Source of the DNA: Actinoalloteichus hymeniacidonis
GTDB lineage: Bacteria; Actinomycetota; Actinomycetes; Mycobacteriales; Pseudonocardiaceae
Length of the DNA: 64,000 nt
Direction: 5' to 3'
Assembly: GCF_014203365.1 (NCBI RefSeq)
Contig: NZ_JACHIS010000001.1
Span: 4,898,001 to 4,962,000, forward strand
The translations under genes were made by a program, and so were the position numbers. Under the pieces are notes generated by a model. The model had not been told where the DNA came from, did not search any database, and worked only from the letters and a program-made list of their open reading frames with translations. This document shows positions 8,411-17,422 of the stretch, in pieces. Every line of letters begins with the position of its first letter. Positions within the stretch are counted from its first letter, which is position 1.

Positions 8411-9193
8411 TCAGATGAGCTTCTGGCCGACCAGGTACTCGGCGATCTGCGCGCCGCCCTGGCCTTGGTCGTCGACTCGCTCGCCCGCGCCGCGCGGCGG
8501 CTTGGGGGCGGATTCGACGACGGTGCTCCAGGAGCCACCCAGGCCGACCTCGGCCGCGTCGATGCCCAGATCGGCCAACGTCACCGTGTCCGTCTGCTTC
8601 TTCTTGGCGGCCATGATCCCCTTGAAGGAGGGGTACCGGGGGTCGTTGATCTTCTCGCCGACGCTGACCACTGCGGGCAGCTGGGCCTCGAGGTGCGTGA
8701 TGCCCTCGTCGGTCTCCCGCTCCACCCGGACGGTCTGGCCGTCGATCTCGACCTTGCGGGCGTGGGTGAGCTGGGGAAGGCCCAGCAGCTCGGCCAGGAC
8801 CGCGGGAATGGCGCCGCCACGACCGTCGGTGGCCTCGTTGCCCGTGACGACCAGGTCGACGCCCTCGACGGTGCCGATGGCCTTGGCCAGCACCTTCGCG
8901 GTCTGGATCAGGTCGGTTCCGTGCAGGGCCGGGTCGGAGACATGCACGGCTCTGTGCGCGCCCATCGCCAGTCCCTTGCGGAGTGCCTCGGTGGCGCGGT
9001 CGGGTCCCATGGACAGGACGACGACCTCACCCCCGTGCGCCTCCTGGATACGGAGCGCCTCCTCCACGGCACGCTCGTTGATCTCGTCGATCACCGCGTC
9101 CGCCGAGTCACGGTCCAGCGTGTGGTCGGCGTCGTTGAGCTTGCGCTCGGAGTAGGTGTCGGGCACCTGCTTTACCAGCACGACAATGTTCAT
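8411..9193 (-). CDS. etfB: Electron transfer flavoprotein beta subunit
   Basis: AMP-binding partner of EtfA. The 260-residue protein starts MNIVVLVKQVPDT and contains the ETF-beta signature region (VVTGNEATDGRGGAIPAVLAELLG). The ATG at 9193 is preceded by GAGGA and, further up, AGGAGG on the minus strand. It is first gene of a two-gene etfBA operon. A palindrome upstream (9307-9320) is a possible operator. The pair also lies beside the MGLP genes in mycobacteria (recalled as Rv3029c-Rv3028c). Confidence 0.96.
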   Translation of the reverse strand: MNIVVLVKQVPDTYSERKLNDADHTLDRDSADAVIDEINERAVEEALRIQEAHGGEVVVLSMGPDRATEALRKGLAMGAHRAVHVSDPALHGTDLIQTAKVLAKAIGTVEGVDLVVTGNEATDGRGGAIPAVLAELLGLPQLTHARKVEIDGQTVRVERETDEGITHLEAQLPAVVSVGEKINDPRYPSFKGIMAAKKKQTDTVTLADLGIDAAEVGLGGSWSTVVESAPKPPRGAGERVDDQGQGGAQIAEYLVGQKLI

Positions 9194-9616
9194 GGGTCCT
9201 CGTCGACCTCCTGCGGAATCGGGGTTCTCCCGGCGGATCATCGGCCATGACCCTGCCAGGTCCATGCCCCTGCGGCACGGTGGTGTCAGCCACAACCGAC
9301 ACTATGTTACTTGCGAGTAGTTTTACTGCGGCCCACTGTCTCACGGCCCACGGCGTGACTGTCGTCACCCAACCTCACGGGCCTCGCGACGACGTGGAGC
9401 GGGCTTATTCGACGAGTAGCAGGATCTCGCACGCCTCGGCGGGCACGGTCGTCGACCGGTTCGATACCTACCGACCGCTCACCCTCCGATCGACACCAAG
9501 CAACCGCTTGCCGACGCTGAGTAGCCAGCTTTCACGGGTGGTCATACTCTCGGTCGCGTCCAATCCCGCCACCTCGACACGCAACCTTCGCCGAGCAATG
9601 CGAGAGGAACGCCTCG
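9194..9616. other. Divergent intergenic region upstream of etfB
   Basis: About 420 bases without a convincing gene. It holds the etfB ribosome site, a likely etfB promoter and one near-palindrome (9307-9320). Open frames crossing it have no family signature and unnatural composition. Confidence 0.6.
9307..9320. promoter_or_regulatory. Candidate operator upstream of the etfBA operon
   Basis: Near-perfect palindrome TTACT-TGCG-AGTAG about 115 bases upstream of the etfB start, inside a locally AT-rich island. On the etf strand it abuts TAACAT, which could be a -10 element, so a bound repressor would block the promoter. TetR-type regulators of fatty-acid genes often use TTACT/AGTAA half-sites (inference). 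No regulator is identified. Confidence 0.4.
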
Positions 9617-10249: not shown

Positions 10250-10906
10250 TCAGGCCGGTTCGGGCCCGTAGGCGTGCAGGAAGGTCCGAACGGCGGCCGC
10301 GACCAGGGCCCGTTTCTCCGGATCGGGAACCGAGCGGGTGCCGAACCTGGCCCGTGATTCCAGCGATCCGGTGAGCAGGGCGCTCAACTGCTCGGCCGCC
10401 TCCACCGGATCGCAGCGACGCAGCCTCCCCGCCAACGAGAGCCTGGCCAGCCGGTCGGCCAACGCCTCGGTCACCCGGTCGGCCGCCCGCCCCCGAACGA
10501 TATCGACCAGTTCGAGGTGCTGCGGCAACTCCGCGTACACCAGCCTGCGCACCGCCCACGAGCGTTCGTCGCAGTAACACTCGACCAGGTCGTAGCCGAC
10601 CTCCGCGAGCAGCGTCGAGAGATCTTGACCCCGGTCCATCAGCCGCTCGACCACCGCGAGATTCGTGGCCAACGCCCGGTCGGCCTCCGCCGTGATGGTG
10701 GCGCGGAACAGGTTCTCCTTATCGCCGAAGTGGCTGTAGACGGTGGGTTTGGCCACCCCGGCCTCGGCCGCGATCACGCTCACCCCCGCCTGCGCGTAGC
10801 CCTCCCGGGCGAAGACCGTGAAGGCGGCCGACAGGATCGCCTGCCGCTTGTCGATCCGGCCGCGCGAGACGTCTCGCGCCGGGGCCGAGCTGGTCGCTTC
10901 GCTCAC
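10250..10906 (-). CDS. TetR/AcrR-family transcriptional repressor
   Basis: A 218-residue one-component regulator. The N-terminal helix-turn-helix spans about residues 22-66 (AILSAAFTVFAREGY, then VSVIAAEAGVAKPTVYSHFGDKENLF), a textbook TetR DNA-binding domain. The C-terminal ligand domain is not assignable to a known inducer. It is transcribed divergently from a PPOX-type oxidoreductase gene. The 157-base gap holds two palindromes with GAACC/GGTTC half-sites, so it probably represses itself and the neighbour. Confidence 0.9.
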   Translation of the reverse strand: MSEATSSAPARDVSRGRIDKRQAILSAAFTVFAREGYAQAGVSVIAAEAGVAKPTVYSHFGDKENLFRATITAEADRALATNLAVVERLMDRGQDLSTLLAEVGYDLVECYCDERSWAVRRLVYAELPQHLELVDIVRGRAADRVTEALADRLARLSLAGRLRRCDPVEAAEQLSALLTGSLESRARFGTRSVPDPEKRALVAAAVRTFLHAYGPEPA

Positions 10907-11063: not shown

Positions 11064-11474
11064 ATGTCCGTCACTCCGGAGAAACTCCGACAGCTGCTGG
11101 ATTCCCGTGTCTTCGGCATCGTGGCCACCGTCGCGCCGGACGGAAGCCCACAACAGTCGGTGGTCTGGTTGGCCGCCGACGGCGACGACCTGCGCTTCTT
11201 CATCGCGGTCGGTAGCCGCAAGGAACGCAATCTGCGCCGGGACCCGAGGATCGGCGTGCTGATCAGCCCCGCCGATGCGCCGTACAGCTATGCCGCCATC
11301 CGGGGCACGGCGCGGTTCGAACCGGACACGGCCCTGGCGCTGCGCGACGAACTCTCCCGGAAGTACGTGGGACTCTCCTACGCCGAGCACATCGCACAGA
11401 CTCCGGAAGCCGCCCACCTCGGCCCGATCACCTCGGTGCGGGTGAGCCCCGAACGCATCACCGGGCGGCTTTGA
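11064..11474 (+). CDS. PPOX-class flavin/F420-dependent oxidoreductase
   Basis: A 136-residue split-barrel flavoprotein related to pyridoxamine-phosphate oxidases; many actinobacterial members use coenzyme F420. Typical features are FGIVATVAPDGSPQQSVVW near the N-terminus, then DLRFFIAVGSRKERNLRRDPRIGVLI and YAAIRGTARF. The ATG at 11064 follows an AAGGAG ribosome site (11049-11054). It is probably repressed by the divergent TetR protein through the palindromes upstream. The substrate, and FMN versus F420, cannot be decided by eye. Confidence 0.85.
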   Translation: MSVTPEKLRQLLDSRVFGIVATVAPDGSPQQSVVWLAADGDDLRFFIAVGSRKERNLRRDPRIGVLISPADAPYSYAAIRGTARFEPDTALALRDELSRKYVGLSYAEHIAQTPEAAHLGPITSVRVSPERITGRL

Positions 11475-11549
11475 CCGCCGCTCGGCACGCGCGGCGGCAC
11501 CCGCTAAACCGGTGGCCGCCCGGCGCCGGGGCTTGATACGTTCGTGGAC

Positions 11550-11594
11550 ATGCATAACGGTCTCTGGTCGCAGAAGGTGCGCACCCGCCGCTGA
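11550..11594 (+). CDS. Leader peptide of the ABC-F gene, 14 codons
   Basis: Short [17 protein letters not shown] whose TGA falls exactly in the loop of the downstream hairpin. GATACG upstream (about 11535-11540) could be a -10 element, giving a leaderless or nearly leaderless message. Short ORFs overlapping a terminator upstream of ABC-F antibiotic-resistance genes are a known sign of ribosome-mediated attenuation. Translation of this ORF itself is inferred. Confidence 0.55.
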
Positions 11595-11608
11595 CGGCGG
11601 CGCCCTTC
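11573..11608 (+). terminator. Transcription attenuator hairpin before the ABC-F gene
   Basis: Inner arms CCGCCG (11585-11590) and CGGCGG (11595-11600) around CTGA, extended by GCG/CGC and GAAGG/CCTTC (11573-11577 and 11604-11608) with small bulges, about 14 base pairs in total. A pyrimidine tract (ttccttcctctc) follows. A ribosome held near the end of the leader peptide would cover the left arm and prevent termination. Confidence 0.6.
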
Positions 11609-11677
11609 TTCCTTCCTCTCAGCGCTCGCCGTCCCAGGCCCATCGCCGGACGGCTCGATCTGTGCTGCCCGGCTCCC

Positions 11678-13393
11678 ATGCGAGCTGCGGAGACCCTGTT
11701 GCATCCCTTCACCGAATCCACCAAACCCCACGCCACCGACACCGCCATCGAGCCGTCGATGCCCGCAGGCGACCGAGCCCACCTGCGGGCCGAGGGGATC
11801 AGCGTCGTGCGGGGCGCCCGCCGGATCCTGCACGAGGTGTCCGTCACGGTGTCCCCGACCTCCCGGCTCGCCGTGGTCGGCGAGAACGGCCGAGGCAAGA
11901 CGACCCTGTTGCACGTCCTGGCCGGGCTAGTGCAGCCCGATCACGGAACCGTGCATCGCGCGGGCACCGTCGGCCTGGCGCAACAGGCACTCGCCGCAGG
12001 CCCCGGCGAGACGGTGGGCCGCCTGATCTCCCAGGCGCTACGGGCCTCGCAGGATGCGCTGATCGAACTCGACGCGGCGGGTGCGGCCCTGGCCGAGGGC
12101 GCCACCAGCGCCGAGGACCGGTACGCCACGGCCTTGGAGGCCGCGACCCGGCTGGACGCCTGGGACGCCGACCGGCGCGTCGATGTCGCGCTCGATGCGT
12201 TGCGCGCCTGCTCGGATCGGGCACGCGAGTTGTCGACGCTGTCGGTCGGACAGCGCTATCGGGTCCGGCTGGCCTGTCTGTTGGGCGCCAAGCACGACAC
12301 GCTGTTGTTGGACGAACCCACCAACCATCTCGATGCCGATGGGCTGCTGTTCCTGACGCGTCGACTCGCCGAGCACCGGGGCGGCCTCGCACTGGTCAGC
12401 CACGATCGGGCGCTGCTACGGGATGTCACCGAGCAGTATCTGGACCTCGATCCGAGTCGGGACGGTCGCCCGCGTAGCTACGCGGGTGGCTACGACGCCT
12501 GGCAGGCCGAACGGGCTCGCGAGCGGGAGCGGTGGTCGCAGGAGTACGAGACGCAGCAGACGGAACATCGTCGGCTCACGACGGCGGCCCAACAGGCCAG
12601 GGATCGGCTGAACACCGGTTGGCGGCCGGACAAGGGCACCGGGAAACACCAGCGGCAGAGCCGAGCGCCGGGGGTCGTGCAGGCGTTCAACCGGCAGCAG
12701 GAAGCCCTCGAAGCCCACCGGGTCATCGTCCCCGAGCCGCCGCTGACGCTGCGTTGGCCGAGGATCGAGGTCCGCCCCGGCGCGGCGTTGCTGCGCGCTC
12801 ACGAGGTCACGGTGGCCCGGCAGTTGGACCAACCCGTCTCGTTGACCGTCGACGGCGGCGACCGGCTGTTGGTCACCGGCGAGAACGGCGCGGGCAAATC
12901 CACCCTGCTCGCGGTGCTCGCGCAGCGCCTCGAACCGACCGGCGGACGCCTGCATCGGCTGCGCGGCGGTTCGGTGGCGTTGGTGCAGCAGGAGGTTCCG
13001 GAGTGGAACGGTGAGCGCAGCGCCGCGCAGCTCTACGAGCAGCGGATCGGTGAACTGGTCGCCGATGGCGAGCTCCGCGACTCCGAGGCGGTGTCGCTGG
13101 CATCGACCGGTCTGCTGGATCGCCATGCGCTGCGCACTCCCGTCGGCCGGATGTCGCAGGGACAACAGCGCAGGCTCGATCTCGCGCTCGCGCTGGCGAC
13201 CCGGCCGAGCGTGCTCATCCTCGACGAACCGACCAACCACCTCTCCTCGGTGTTGGTCGACGAGCTGACGGCGGCGATCCGGGAGACGGCCGCCGCCGTC
13301 ATCGTGGCCACCCACGATCGTCAGCTGCTACGGGATCTCGCCGACTGGCCTCGGCTGGCGATCACGGCGTCAGCACCACCGACGGTCGGCTGA
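11678..13393 (+). CDS. ABC-F ATPase, probable antibiotic-resistance ribosome protection protein
   Basis: Soluble tandem ATPase of 571 residues without membrane segments. First cassette: Walker [10 protein letters not shown] (68-76), signature LSVGQ (188-192), Walker [12 protein letters not shown]. An arginine-rich charged linker (about 265-345) follows. Second cassette: Walker [10 protein letters not shown] (401-409), signature MSQGQ, Walker [12 protein letters not shown]. This is the ABC-F layout; members dislodge drugs from the ribosome or act as translation factors. The gene follows a leader peptide and terminator hairpin, typical of inducible resistance members. Start ATG 11678 lacks a clear ribosome site; ATG 11759 is a reasonable alternative. 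Which drug class it protects against is not readable. Confidence 0.88.
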
Positions 13394-13528: not shown

Positions 13529-14281
13529 ATGTCCGCCGATCACACCGTCGCCGCGCTGCCACTGACCGGGGAACGCACCCTGCCGGGCATCGCCGAGGAG
13601 AACTACTGGTTCCGCAGGCACGAGGCCGCCTATCGCGCGTTCCTGCCGTTGTGCCATGGCGCCCGGGTGGTGGACGCGGGCGCGGGTGAGGGCTACGGCG
13701 CCGCCATGCTGGCCCTGACCGCACGGCAGGTTCTCGCGGTCGACCTCGATGCTCAGGCCGTGCACCACGTCGCGCGGTGTTATCCCGAGGTCGCGGCGGT
13801 CCGCGCCGAGCTGACCACCCTGCCGATCGCCGCCGGAAGCGTCGACGTGGTGGCGAATCTGCAGGTGATCGAACATCTCTGGGATCAGCCCGCGTTCCTC
13901 GCCGAATGCCATCGCGTCCTGCGGCCCGGCGGTTCGCTGCTGCTGACCACTCCGAATCGGCTGACGTTCTCCCCCACCGGGACCAAGAATCCGTTCCATA
14001 CCCGTGAACTCGATCCCGACGAGCTGGCCGAGCTGCTCACCGACGCCGGATTCCACGTGCATCGGCTCGCCGGCCTGCGGCACAGCACCGCGCTGCAGGA
14101 ACGAGAGGCACGCCGAGGCGGCTCCCTGATCGAGGAGCAGATCCGGTTGGCGACCGAGGGGCTGCCTTGGCCCGCCGACCTGCTGCGGGAGGTCGCCGCC
14201 ATCGACGTCGAGGATTTCGTGCTGTCCGACGAGGAATTGGCGACCAGCCTCGACCTGATCGCGGTCGGGAGACGGCCGTGA
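13529..14281 (+). CDS. Class I SAM methyltransferase (Rv3030-like, MGLP locus)
   Basis: A 250-residue methyltransferase with the SAM loop VVDAGAGEGYGAAML (about 47-61), an acidic residue at the end of the second strand (AVDLD) and the VIEHLWD/VLRPGGSLLLTTPN core. Its stop overlaps the start of the GH57 gene by 4 bases (GTGA), so the two are translationally coupled. The mycobacterial counterpart (recalled as Rv3030) has been linked genetically to methylglucose lipopolysaccharide synthesis. By that analogy it would methylate glucose residues of a cytosolic alpha-glucan. Function by context; fold assignment is certain. Confidence 0.88.
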   Translation: MSADHTVAALPLTGERTLPGIAEENYWFRRHEAAYRAFLPLCHGARVVDAGAGEGYGAAMLALTARQVLAVDLDAQAVHHVARCYPEVAAVRAELTTLPIAAGSVDVVANLQVIEHLWDQPAFLAECHRVLRPGGSLLLTTPNRLTFSPTGTKNPFHTRELDPDELAELLTDAGFHVHRLAGLRHSTALQEREARRGGSLIEEQIRLATEGLPWPADLLREVAAIDVEDFVLSDEELATSLDLIAVGRRP

Positions 14282-15816
14282 CCGAATCCGACTCCGGGGA
14301 GCCGATCGGCGATTTCGCCCTCGTTCTGCACACTCACCTGCCCTGGTTGGCGCGGCACGGCGGCTGGCCGGTCGGCGAGGAATGGCTGTATCAGTCCTGG
14401 GCTGACTCCTATCTGCCGCTGGTCGAGGTGCTGTACCGGTTGGCCGAGCAGGACCAGCGCGAGGTGCTCGCCCTCGGGCTGACCCCCGTCCTCGCCGCGC
14501 AGCTCGACGACCCGTACTGCCTGCGCGGGATGCACGACTGGCTGGGTAACCGGGTCCTGCGCACGCAGCACGCCGCGACCCGGTGGCAGCACGATCGACC
14601 CGAGTTGCGCGAGCTGGCCGCCGCCGAGTACCGGCGGGCAACCCACGCCCTGCACCTGTTCGAGAGCCGCTGGCGCCACGGCGCGTCGCCGGTGCTGCGG
14701 CCCTTGGTCGACGCAGGGGTGATCGAGCTGTTGGGTGGTCCGGCCACCCACCCGTTCCAACCGCTGCTGCTGCCCCGGGTGCGAGCCGGGGCCCTACACG
14801 TCGGACTCGAGGACGGCGCGTTGCGACTCGGCAGGCGCAGCACCGGGATCTGGGCGCCGGAATGCGGCTTCGACCCCGGCATGGAGACCGGTTACGCGGC
14901 GGCCGGCCTGACGCACTTCCTGGTGGACTCGCCCGCGTTGGCGGGCCGCACCTCGGCCGCCCGACCGGTGTGGGACTCCGACGTCGTATGTTTCGGCCGG
15001 GACGGGGAGCTGGCCGAACGGGTCTGGTCGCCGAAGGTCGGTTATCCGGGACATCCGGACTACCGGGACTTCCACACCTACGACCATCCGACCGGGCTCA
15101 AGCCCGCCCGCGTCACCGGGCATTCGATCGCGCCTGCGGACAAACAGCCCTACCGCGCCGATCGGGCCTCGGCCGCCGTGGCCGAGCACGTCACCGACTT
15201 CGTCGATGCCGTCGTGGCGCGGTTGCGGGAGCATCGCGTCGTCGACGGGCGGCAGGGTCTGGTGGTGGCGGCCTTCGATACCGAGTTGTTCGGGCACTGG
15301 TGGCACGAGGGACCGGACTGGCTGACGGGTGTGCTGCGCGCGCTTCCCGAGGCCGGGGTCCGAGTCACCACACCTGCGCGGGTGTTGGCGCGCGGGCACG
15401 TCGGCACCCCGGTCGAGCTGCCCGCCTCGTCCTGGGGCGCAGGCAAGGACTGGCGGGTGTGGAACGGACCCGCGGTCTCGGATCTGGTCGCGACCAACGA
15501 GCGGTTGCAACACAGATTGCTCGAGGTCATCGACACCCACCGCTTCCCGGCGGGACGCGATGCGGTGGTCGATCAGCTCTGGCAGGAGGCGTTGTTGGCC
15601 TGTTCCAGCGATTGGGCGTTCATGGTCACCAGGGATTCGGCGGCCGACTATGCCCGAGCTCGGGCGGCCGAACACACCGAGGCGTTCCATCGGCTTGCCG
15701 ACCTGCTCGCCACGGGCGACCGAGCGGGGGCTGCCGCCGAGGCGGCGCGGCTGCGGGTGGTCGACAACCCCTTCGGCGGGCTGGACGCGCGCCGGTTGGC
15801 GGTGGGCACGCCGTGA
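14278..15816 (+). CDS. GH57-family 1,4-alpha-glucan branching-type enzyme (Rv3031-like)
   Basis: A 512-residue glycoside hydrolase family 57 protein. It shows the conserved regions HTHLPW (18-23), GIWAPECGF with the nucleophile glutamate E195, and AAFDTELFGHWWHEG with the acid/base aspartate D334. GH57 members of this subgroup are alpha-1,6-branching enzymes; the mycobacterial counterpart (recalled as Rv3031) sits in the MGLP locus. The GTG start at 14278 overlaps the methyltransferase stop. It is followed by a small gene on the other strand and then the GT4 gene. Confidence 0.9.
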   Translation: MTESDSGEPIGDFALVLHTHLPWLARHGGWPVGEEWLYQSWADSYLPLVEVLYRLAEQDQREVLALGLTPVLAAQLDDPYCLRGMHDWLGNRVLRTQHAATRWQHDRPELRELAAAEYRRATHALHLFESRWRHGASPVLRPLVDAGVIELLGGPATHPFQPLLLPRVRAGALHVGLEDGALRLGRRSTGIWAPECGFDPGMETGYAAAGLTHFLVDSPALAGRTSAARPVWDSDVVCFGRDGELAERVWSPKVGYPGHPDYRDFHTYDHPTGLKPARVTGHSIAPADKQPYRADRASAAVAEHVTDFVDAVVARLREHRVVDGRQGLVVAAFDTELFGHWWHEGPDWLTGVLRALPEAGVRVTTPARVLARGHVGTPVELPASSWGAGKDWRVWNGPAVSDLVATNERLQHRLLEVIDTHRFPAGRDAVVDQLWQEALLACSSDWAFMVTRDSAADYARARAAEHTEAFHRLADLLATGDRAGAAAEAARLRVVDNPFGGLDARRLAVGTP

Positions 15817-16126: not shown

Positions 16127-17422
16127 ATGCGGGTGCTGATGTTGTCCTGGGAGTACCCACCGGTGGTGGTCGGCGGGCTCGGTCGTCATGTCCATGCCCT
16201 GGCCGAGCAACTCGCCGCACAAGGCCACGAGGTGGTGGTGCTGTGCAGGCAGCCGACCGGCACCGATGCGAGCACCCACCCGACGGAGTTCGCCGAGCGG
16301 GCCGGGGTGCGGGTGGTCCGGGTCGCCGAGGACCCGCCGCACCTGGCCTTCGAACGCGATCTGGTGGCCTGGACCCTTGCGATGGGGCACGCCATGATCC
16401 GCGCAGGTCACGCCCTGTTGCGCGAGTGGCGGGCCGATGTGGTGCACGCCCACGACTGGCTGGTGGCGCACCCGGCGATCGCCCTCGCCGAGGCGGCGGA
16501 TGTGCCGCTGGTGGCGACCCTGCACGCCACCGAGACCGGTAGACACAGCGGTTGGCTTCCCCAGCCGATGAATCAGCAGATCCATTCGGTCGAGTGGTGG
16601 CTGGCCAATCGGGCCGATCGGCTGATCACCTGTTCGGCCGCGATGCGCGGCGAGGTCGCACAGCTCTTCGACGTCGACCCCGACGGCATCGCCGTGCTGC
16701 ACAACGGGATCAGCCCCAGTCCGTGGCACGTACCGGACGAGTTGGTCGCCAAGGCCCGTTCCTCGGCGCGGGCCACCGAGGCGCCGCTGCTGCTGTTCTT
16801 CGGTCGAATCGAGTGGGAGAAGGGCGCCCAGGACCTGGTCGCGGCCCTGCCCGCGATTCGTCGCAGTCATCCGGGCACGGTGGTCGCCATCGCCGGGCAG
16901 GGCGGCTATCGAGAACGGCTGATCGAGGAGACCCGCAAGCATCGGGTTCGGCGTGCGGTGCGGTTCCTGGGGCAGCTGCCGGACCGCAAGCTGGCCACGA
17001 TGCTGGCCGCAGCCGATGCGGTCGTGCTGCCCAGCAGGTACGAGCCGTTCGGCATCGTGGCCCTGGAGGCCGCCGCTGCGGGTGCGCCGCTGGTCGCATC
17101 GACGGCAGGCGGTCTGGGCGAGGCGGTCCTCGACGAGCGCACCGGCCTGTCCTTCGCCCCCGGGGACATCGATGGCCTGGCCACGGCCGTGCGGCGGGTA
17201 TTGACCGATCCGGCAGGCGCCGCACGCCGTGCCGAAGCGGCCAGGGCCCGGCTGGCCACCGACTTCTCCTGGGACACCATCGCCGAGGGAACCGTCGAGG
17301 TGTACGCCGCCGCCAAGGCCGCCGTGCCGGCTCGCGGGTCGACAGGCGACGCCTGCGCGCCCCCCGGCCGGCCGGAGTTGGCTCGACCCAAGATTCCGTC
17401 CGGGAATCTCCTGTCTGGGTGA
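16127..17422 (+). CDS. GT4-family alpha-(1->4)-glucosyltransferase (Rv3032-like)
   Basis: A 431-residue retaining glycosyltransferase with a GT-B fold. The N-terminus MRVLMLSWEYPPVVVGGLGRHV is the glycogen-synthase-like acceptor loop, and HAHDWL follows. The C-terminal donor half has LLLFFGRIEWEKG and the EPFGIVALE E-x7-E motif. The mycobacterial counterpart (recalled as Rv3032) elongates the alpha-1,4-glucan of MGLP and contributes to glycogen. An AAGGA ribosome site lies 9 bases before the ATG. Together with the upstream methyltransferase and GH57 enzyme it forms a glucan elongation, branching and methylation set. Confidence 0.92.
   Translation: MRVLMLSWEYPPVVVGGLGRHVHALAEQLAAQGHEVVVLCRQPTGTDASTHPTEFAERAGVRVVRVAEDPPHLAFERDLVAWTLAMGHAMIRAGHALLREWRADVVHAHDWLVAHPAIALAEAADVPLVATLHATETGRHSGWLPQPMNQQIHSVEWWLANRADRLITCSAAMRGEVAQLFDVDPDGIAVLHNGISPSPWHVPDELVAKARSSARATEAPLLLFFGRIEWEKGAQDLVAALPAIRRSHPGTVVAIAGQGGYRERLIEETRKHRVRRAVRFLGQLPDRKLATMLAAADAVVLPSRYEPFGIVALEAAAAGAPLVASTAGGLGEAVLDERTGLSFAPGDIDGLATAVRRVLTDPAGAARRAEAARARLATDFSWDTIAEGTVEVYAAAKAAVPARGSTGDACAPPGRPELARPKIPSGNLLSG

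Follow-up and report, generated by a model that had tools for sequence, protein, structure and literature searches.

The window analysed here, a 64-kb stretch of the 6.3-Mb single-contig genome of Actinoalloteichus hymeniacidonis, contains on its forward strand a 14-codon open reading frame (ORF; 11550–11594), predicted to be leaderless, that reads ATG-CAT-AAC-GGT-CTC-TGG-TCG-CAG-AAG-GTG-CGC-ACC-CGC-CGC-TGA. Its stop codon, UGA, lies in or at the 4-nt loop of a GC-rich hairpin (hairpin 1), whose local fold comprises 15 pairs in three stacks (6+4+5) with two small bulges (−24.7 kcal/mol; z = −2.55). A sequence-only reading of this stretch had proposed such an ORF upstream of an ABC-F gene, ending in the 4-base loop of a hairpin of about 14 bp, and both features were recovered essentially as described. 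It had also pointed to a pyrimidine tract after the hairpin; the tract (CUUCUUCCUUCCUCU, 3′ of hairpin 1) does exist, but it holds no run of U and no terminator-like site was scored there. The regulatory element reaches 11701 and includes two further conserved hairpins. Among the 517 ORFs of 9–25 codons in the 64-kb window, 30 have a stop codon that falls within a GC-hairpin loop (hairpins of 6 bp or more) and one has TANNNT 6–7 nt upstream of its start; the ORF at 11550 alone combines the two. At gathering score, no Rfam family matched in the window or in seven related loci.

The gene downstream (11699–13393, forward strand) encodes an ABC-F ATPase of 564 aa, and its ORF is intact. Translation more probably starts at TTG 11699 than at ATG 11678, as judged from the Shine–Dalgarno sequence GGAG (11689–11692), 6 nt upstream of the TTG, and from the orthologues, which agree; the ATG was given up as the start on these grounds. 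PF00005 (ABC_tran) matches the protein twice, no membrane domain is among the Pfam matches, and the linker PF12848 (ABC_tran_Xtn) scores 22.4 bits against a cut-off of 25.9. The best NCBIfam model, the general ribosome-protection ABC-F model NF000355, reaches 314.9 bits (below its cut-off of 380), and the macrolide-producer family NF000171 (TlrC/CarA/OleB/SrmB) 293.7 bits (below its cut-off of 800); by the NCBIfam cut-offs, the protein passes no curated resistance-family model. In the two congeners searched, a close orthologue is absent, with the best ABC-F matches 41–42% identical, and the leader covariance model described below gives no match, so the gene is patchy in its distribution.

The locus is flanked on one side by an ETF-beta-like gene and on the other by genes for a methyltransferase, an alpha-glucan-type hydrolase and a glycosyltransferase (neighbouring genes at 8411–9295 and 10253–10906 on the reverse strand, and at 11064–11474, 13529–14281, 14167–15816 and 16127–17422 on the forward strand). 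The flanking gene order recalls that of Rv3029c–Rv3032 in M. tuberculosis. Genes for a TetR regulator, an F420-dependent PPOX oxidoreductase and the ABC-F protein sit between these flanks, as if inserted.

Conservation of the leader and its predicted promoter

Orthologues were taken from 84,980 species genomes and from 100 family genomes. A protein tree built on 84 ABC-F sequences contains one clade (SH-aLRT support 99) of 56 members drawn from many actinomycete families, and the leader ORF and hairpins accompany 54 of these; of the two exceptions, one has masked upstream sequence and the other is a Brevibacterium. The short ORF and hairpin, which the sequence-only reading had proposed to compare across orthologues, are thus kept. 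The leader peptide MARGIWSQKVRSAR, in some cases with one residue altered, occurs in Streptomyces, Micromonospora, Nonomuraea, Streptosporangium and Pseudonocardia, while other relatives encode MYSGIGMMKPWSLR, MHSGIAFMRLRLRR, MMYSFAVFARLRSRR, MYRGIASMKLRSAR and more besides. A degenerate DNA pattern for WSQ-K-x-R..R-stop matched this locus alone in 395 class genomes; the exact peptide is therefore rare, and an RNA model is needed to see the family. A search confined to openly available literature did not turn up the exact leader peptide strings.

Two related genomes have the leader placed several hundred bases upstream of the ABC-F homology (L012, 728–1501; L013, 1022–1501); there the intervening frame extends the ABC-F protein at its N terminus by a stretch of low complexity, rich in Gly, Arg, Asn and Gln. 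Another type of leader, of 6–10 codons and also predicted to be leaderless, occurs in sister ABC-F groups and ends in [Y/F/L][Y/F]L-stop or LFL-stop (loci L018–L026, L028, L030–L037, L076, L081, L082, L087 and L161). Examples such as MHLYFL, MMQQLLFL, MSYQFYL and MGFGYGVFYL recall the MsrD leader MsrDL (MYLIFM), which is arrested at termination.

A promoter directly adjoins the leader ORF on the same strand. The −10 box TACGTT (11537–11542; TANNNT) follows a −35-like TGGCCG (11513–11518) after an 18-bp spacer, and a WblC/WhiB7-like box, CTAAAC (11504–11509; consensus GAAAWY), stands 3 nt upstream of the −35. WblC/WhiB7 promoters have the layout GAAAWY–3 bp–TKGMNN–16–19 bp–TANNNT, and transcription from the WblC promoters of S. 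coelicolor starts 7–8 bp after the −10 (PMC7157823). TANNNT stands 6–7 nt upstream of the start in 43 of 44 distinct leaders, compared with 1 of 298 ATG/GTG codons in the same upstream regions, and AAA at −31 to −29 becomes prominent once the leaders are aligned on the −10. The window promoter scores 8/10 for box and −35 together and 4/6 for the box itself; at least 8/10 is reached by 49% of 68 promoters versus 0.3% of shuffles, with a family mean of 7.0 versus 4.4. Because the TANNNT spacing fits the WblC/WhiB7 layout with its start 7–8 bp further on, the leader ORF is predicted to lie at the 5′ end of the transcript and to be leaderless, transcription starting at or adjoining its ATG. Box, −35 and −10 are laid out as in the WblC/WhiB7 regulon, although the window has an imperfect version of the box. 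In mycobacteria, too, there are leaderless attenuators with a short regulatory ORF that begins at the mRNA 5′ end, but those sense cysteine and not antibiotics.

Leaders upstream of other gene types and on plasmids

A covariance model built from the ABC-F leaders matched in 30 of 150 family genomes, in 17 of the 199 genomes from another genus (taken to be Streptomyces) and in three others among 148 class genomes. Matches also precede genes for Erm 23S rRNA methyltransferases (nearest Erm46/Erm55/Erm38) and for LmrA-like MFS exporters. The arrangement TANNNT-N6-8-ATG recurs in the Erm and MFS leaders, and the Erm leaders carry +X+ motifs. Weak matches with E > ~1e-4 (L148–L150) do not resemble leaders and were set aside.

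Plasmid-borne leaders, those of pathogens included, were matched upstream of a Micrococcus luteus ABC-F–MFS operon (E = 2e-25), a Prescottella equi ABC-F gene (E = 1.5e-16), erm(X) (peptide MLISGTAFLRLRTNR; E = 4e-7), erm(55) of Mycobacteroides chelonae (E = 1e-4) and, weakly, erm(46) of P. equi (E = 0.005). On the conjugative P. equi plasmid pVAPA2287, the ABC-F gene and erm(46) lie ~2.8 kb apart, each with a model-matched leader, that of erm(46) weakly (L155, 903–1043 and 3802–3936; peptides MYASTGFMKPWSLR and MGNTNIAVTEFRRF). An MFS transporter gene directly 3′ of the ABC-F gene, as in mef/msr(D), was seen on plasmids of Micrococcus luteus and Janibacter melonis (L159, 677–3008; L161, 677–3005). 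A leader peptide gene of erm(X) has already been described, with possible erythromycin-inducible translational attenuation (PMC3350403), and universal conservation was not seen in a survey of erm leaders (PMC11264731). A literature search with fragments of the erm(X) leader returned unrelated acronyms only.

Alternative RNA pairings and a predicted arrest site

An alignment of 42 leaders holds six conserved segments. In the window, all on the forward strand, these are segment 1 (CCGCCG; 11585–11590), which forms the left arm of hairpin 1 and would be covered by a stalled ribosome, segment 2 (11593–11603), segment 3 (11624–11634), segment 4 (GCCGGACGGC; 11645–11654), segment 5 (11664–11675) and segment 6 (GAGCUGCGGAG; 11682–11692), which contains the ABC-F Shine–Dalgarno sequence. 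They pair as 1:2, 3:4 and 5:6 in an ‘off’ state, with the Shine–Dalgarno sequence inside segment 6, and as 2:3 and 4:5 in an ‘on’ state, where the GA of the stop codon takes part in the helix of segment 2 with segment 3.

RNAalifold gave the ‘on’ state unprompted. In this pairing, 98.1% of cells are paired and four pairs are altered on both sides, a level of double-sided change that none of 500 shuffles reached (kinship ignored). Compensatory changes include A-U instead of G-C at columns 100/133 (L066) and A-U at columns 105/125 (L071, L075), and in L055 the stop is UAG instead of UGA, with a matching change in segment 3. The base opposite the last nucleotide of the stop is U in 43 of 52 UGA leaders versus 0 of 14 UAG leaders (kinship ignored), UGA being the stop of most ABC-F leaders and UAG that of L055 and of the Erm and MFS leaders. 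Since UGA or UAG is used according to the leader group, in agreement with segment 3, the stop codon seems to have a role in RNA pairing as well as in termination. The ‘off’ state is also conserved, and its covariation is weak.

Blocking segment 1 in the window fold lowered 3:4 from 0.95 to 0.06 and raised 2:3 from 0.00 to 0.94 and 4:5 from 0.02 to 0.68. The earlier suggestion that a drug-stalled ribosome on the leader ORF would cover the left arm of the hairpin is supported. At equilibrium, the accessibility of the Shine–Dalgarno sequence rose only from 0.34 to 0.39, and equilibrium folding was for this reason unconvincing as proof of its release. Many class-1 leaders favour the ‘on’ pairing at equilibrium even without a ribosome, so that the ‘off’ state must form kinetically. 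The 4:5 helix of the window contains an A·C mismatch. In class-2 leaders (L060, L062, L065, L071, L086 and L090), CUCUG immediately 5′ of segment 3 complements CAGA(G) next to the ABC-F start codon and may be an additional lock on the start site.

The sequence-only reading had made an intrinsic terminator at 11608 the core of the switch, and here the comparison spoke against it. A terminator scan of the window returned no terminator-like site at hairpin 1, and at least 5 U in the 8-nt window just after this hairpin were found in 0 of the 42 aligned leaders; class-2 leaders have CAGGGUUGACC there. An intrinsic terminator at hairpin 1 was ruled out as a conserved feature on these two results. 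After segment 4, at least 5 U in 8 nt occur in 10 of the 42.

Stalling of macrolide-bound ribosomes has been reported at +X(+) motifs (PMC6238534), and in inverse toeprinting +X+, XPX, +XW and XPW became enriched when erythromycin was present (PMC13410324). The motif [KR]X[KRW] is present in 38 of 49 distinct leader peptides, which supports the weight given earlier to the basic C-terminus, and its second residue lies four codons before the stop in TGA leaders and three codons before it in a set that mostly ends in TAG. The window leader carries K-V-R (K9-V10-R11); this and the motifs R-L-R, K-P-W, K-L-W and R-P-R of other leaders all fit the reported erythromycin arrest motifs. A strict +X+ motif is absent from the MFS leaders (VTRTLR) and from one Pseudonocardiaceae group (MPP). 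By analogy with the known +X(+) motif, arrest is predicted with Val10 (11577–11579) in the P site and Arg11 (11580–11582) in the A site. The front edge of a ribosome lies about 15–16 nt ahead, and with Val10 in the P site it would therefore stand at the first base of the stop codon.

Proposed mechanism, alternatives and relation to known attenuators

We consider it probable that the leader is a ribosome-mediated attenuator that responds to macrolide-type drugs and acts mainly on translation, possibly with a transcriptional component besides. Transcription from the WhiB7/WblC-type promoter would begin at the leader ATG or beside it, and ribosomes would translate the 14-codon ORF, leaderless as predicted, from the 5′ end of the RNA. 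With no drug present, ribosomes would leave and the RNA would fold in order into 1:2, 3:4 and 5:6, the last of which would conceal the ABC-F Shine–Dalgarno sequence. With a drug bound in the exit tunnel, the ribosome would arrest at K9-V10-R11 (Val10 in P, Arg11 in A), and its front edge would reach the first base of the stop codon, masking segment 1 and leaving segment 2 free. Segment 2 would then pair with 3 and free 4, segment 4 would pair with 5 and free 6, and the ABC-F protein would be translated and protect the ribosome. Inducible resistance to a drug acting on the 50S subunit, as put forward in the sequence-only reading, is supported as an interpretation in which arrest, inducer and resistance are deduced from the features of the leader.

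Control might instead lie mainly in transcription, with hairpin 1 or 3:4 terminating unless a ribosome stalls and with release of the Shine–Dalgarno sequence secondary. Other ABC-F attenuators, among them those of msrD and lmrC, do terminate transcription, cplR is controlled at both levels, actinobacterial terminators often have no U-run, and the U-rich stretch after segment 4 in ten leaders points the same way. Against this stand the unconserved U-tract after hairpin 1 (0/42), the empty terminator scan of the window and the place of 4:5 among the best conserved helices, a pairing that would have no purpose were 1:2 or 3:4 simple terminators; we regard transcriptional attenuation as not very probable. 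It is also unlikely that the same device has a lincosamide, a streptogramin A, a pleuromutilin or tetracenomycin X as its inducer. Actinobacterial ARE5 leaders do respond to the first three classes, LmrA-like exporters are named for lincomycin, and tetracenomycin X stalls at Gln-Lys (PMC13410324), which class-1 leaders contain within SQK (SQKVR in the window). However, stalling by LSAP drugs occurs on the start codon or close to it, where the conserved C-terminal motif would be needless; most leaders share [KR]X[RW], but those of class 2 and of the Erm and MFS genes lack QK; and the device also precedes Erm (A2058) genes.

A drug sensor also explains the leader better than an attenuator for general translation stress or amino-acid starvation working through Arg and Trp codons, which we hold to be very unlikely. 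The leader peptides do contain Arg and often Trp, and WblC/whiB7 attenuation reportedly responds to starvation as well, as relayed in a citing paper; yet the genes downstream serve ribosome protection, 23S methylation and efflux and not biosynthesis, the leader codons form no runs of one amino acid, and the position of the motif is fixed relative to the stop. Nor do we give any real weight to a decayed, non-functional leader copy in this genome. The A·C mismatch in 4:5 would suit decay, as would the two congeners without a close orthologue, on account of which the ABC-F gene may be a recent arrival; but the leader matches the covariance model over its full length with 105 bits (the window being one of the 42 training sequences), and the ORF, −10 spacing, motif, both main pairings and the ABC-F ORF are all intact.

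The kind of control proposed is already known, as Erm-type attenuation. The window leader resembles the RLR-class attenuators of ermD and erm(X) in its short peptide with an R-X-R arrest motif and in alternative hairpins that conceal or free the Shine–Dalgarno sequence of the resistance gene; it differs from them in preceding an ABC-F gene, in an ORF predicted to be leaderless, in a stop codon placed inside hairpin 1 and in the alternative helix, and in the six segments and the motif widened to [KR]X[RW] within its family. MsrDL is likewise a macrolide-induced leader before an ABC-F gene (PMC10314930), but it arrests at termination and prevents an intrinsic terminator, and its peptide is unrelated. 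The LmrC, Are5sc and TiaA leaders of Streptomyces share ribosome-mediated attenuation of actinobacterial ABC-F genes (PMC8546547, PMC12421871), whereas their leader ORFs differ (MLV, MVGDDDISG), toeprinting shows LSAP drugs stalling them at the start codon and erythromycin failing to do so, and lmrC is controlled through a terminator. The variant described here appears to be new in its leaderless arrest ORF, the stop inside the switch, the WhiB7-like promoter and the three types of gene that it precedes.

Most likely, then, the window leader is a member of a conserved, portable family that senses macrolide-type drugs and releases translation. More speculatively, a cassette of WhiB7-type promoter, leaderless arrest ORF and six-segment RNA switch may have been shuffled before three types of macrolide-resistance gene in Actinomycetota that differ in mechanism, with the leaderless start a part of sensing: a drug-bound 70S ribosome would bind the 5′ start codon directly, and a single stalled ribosome on each transcript would then be enough to set the switch. 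The family would add to macrolide resistance in Actinomycetota an uncatalogued regulatory RNA with testable logic, in which one short leader joins the WhiB7 stress response, leaderless translation and drug-specific nascent-chain arrest, and its natural set of arrest peptides would be a resource for the rules of drug-dependent stalling. Given the leaders on Prescottella (Rhodococcus) equi plasmids and before erm(55) of Mycobacteroides chelonae, inducible resistance in these bacteria may share one control mechanism.
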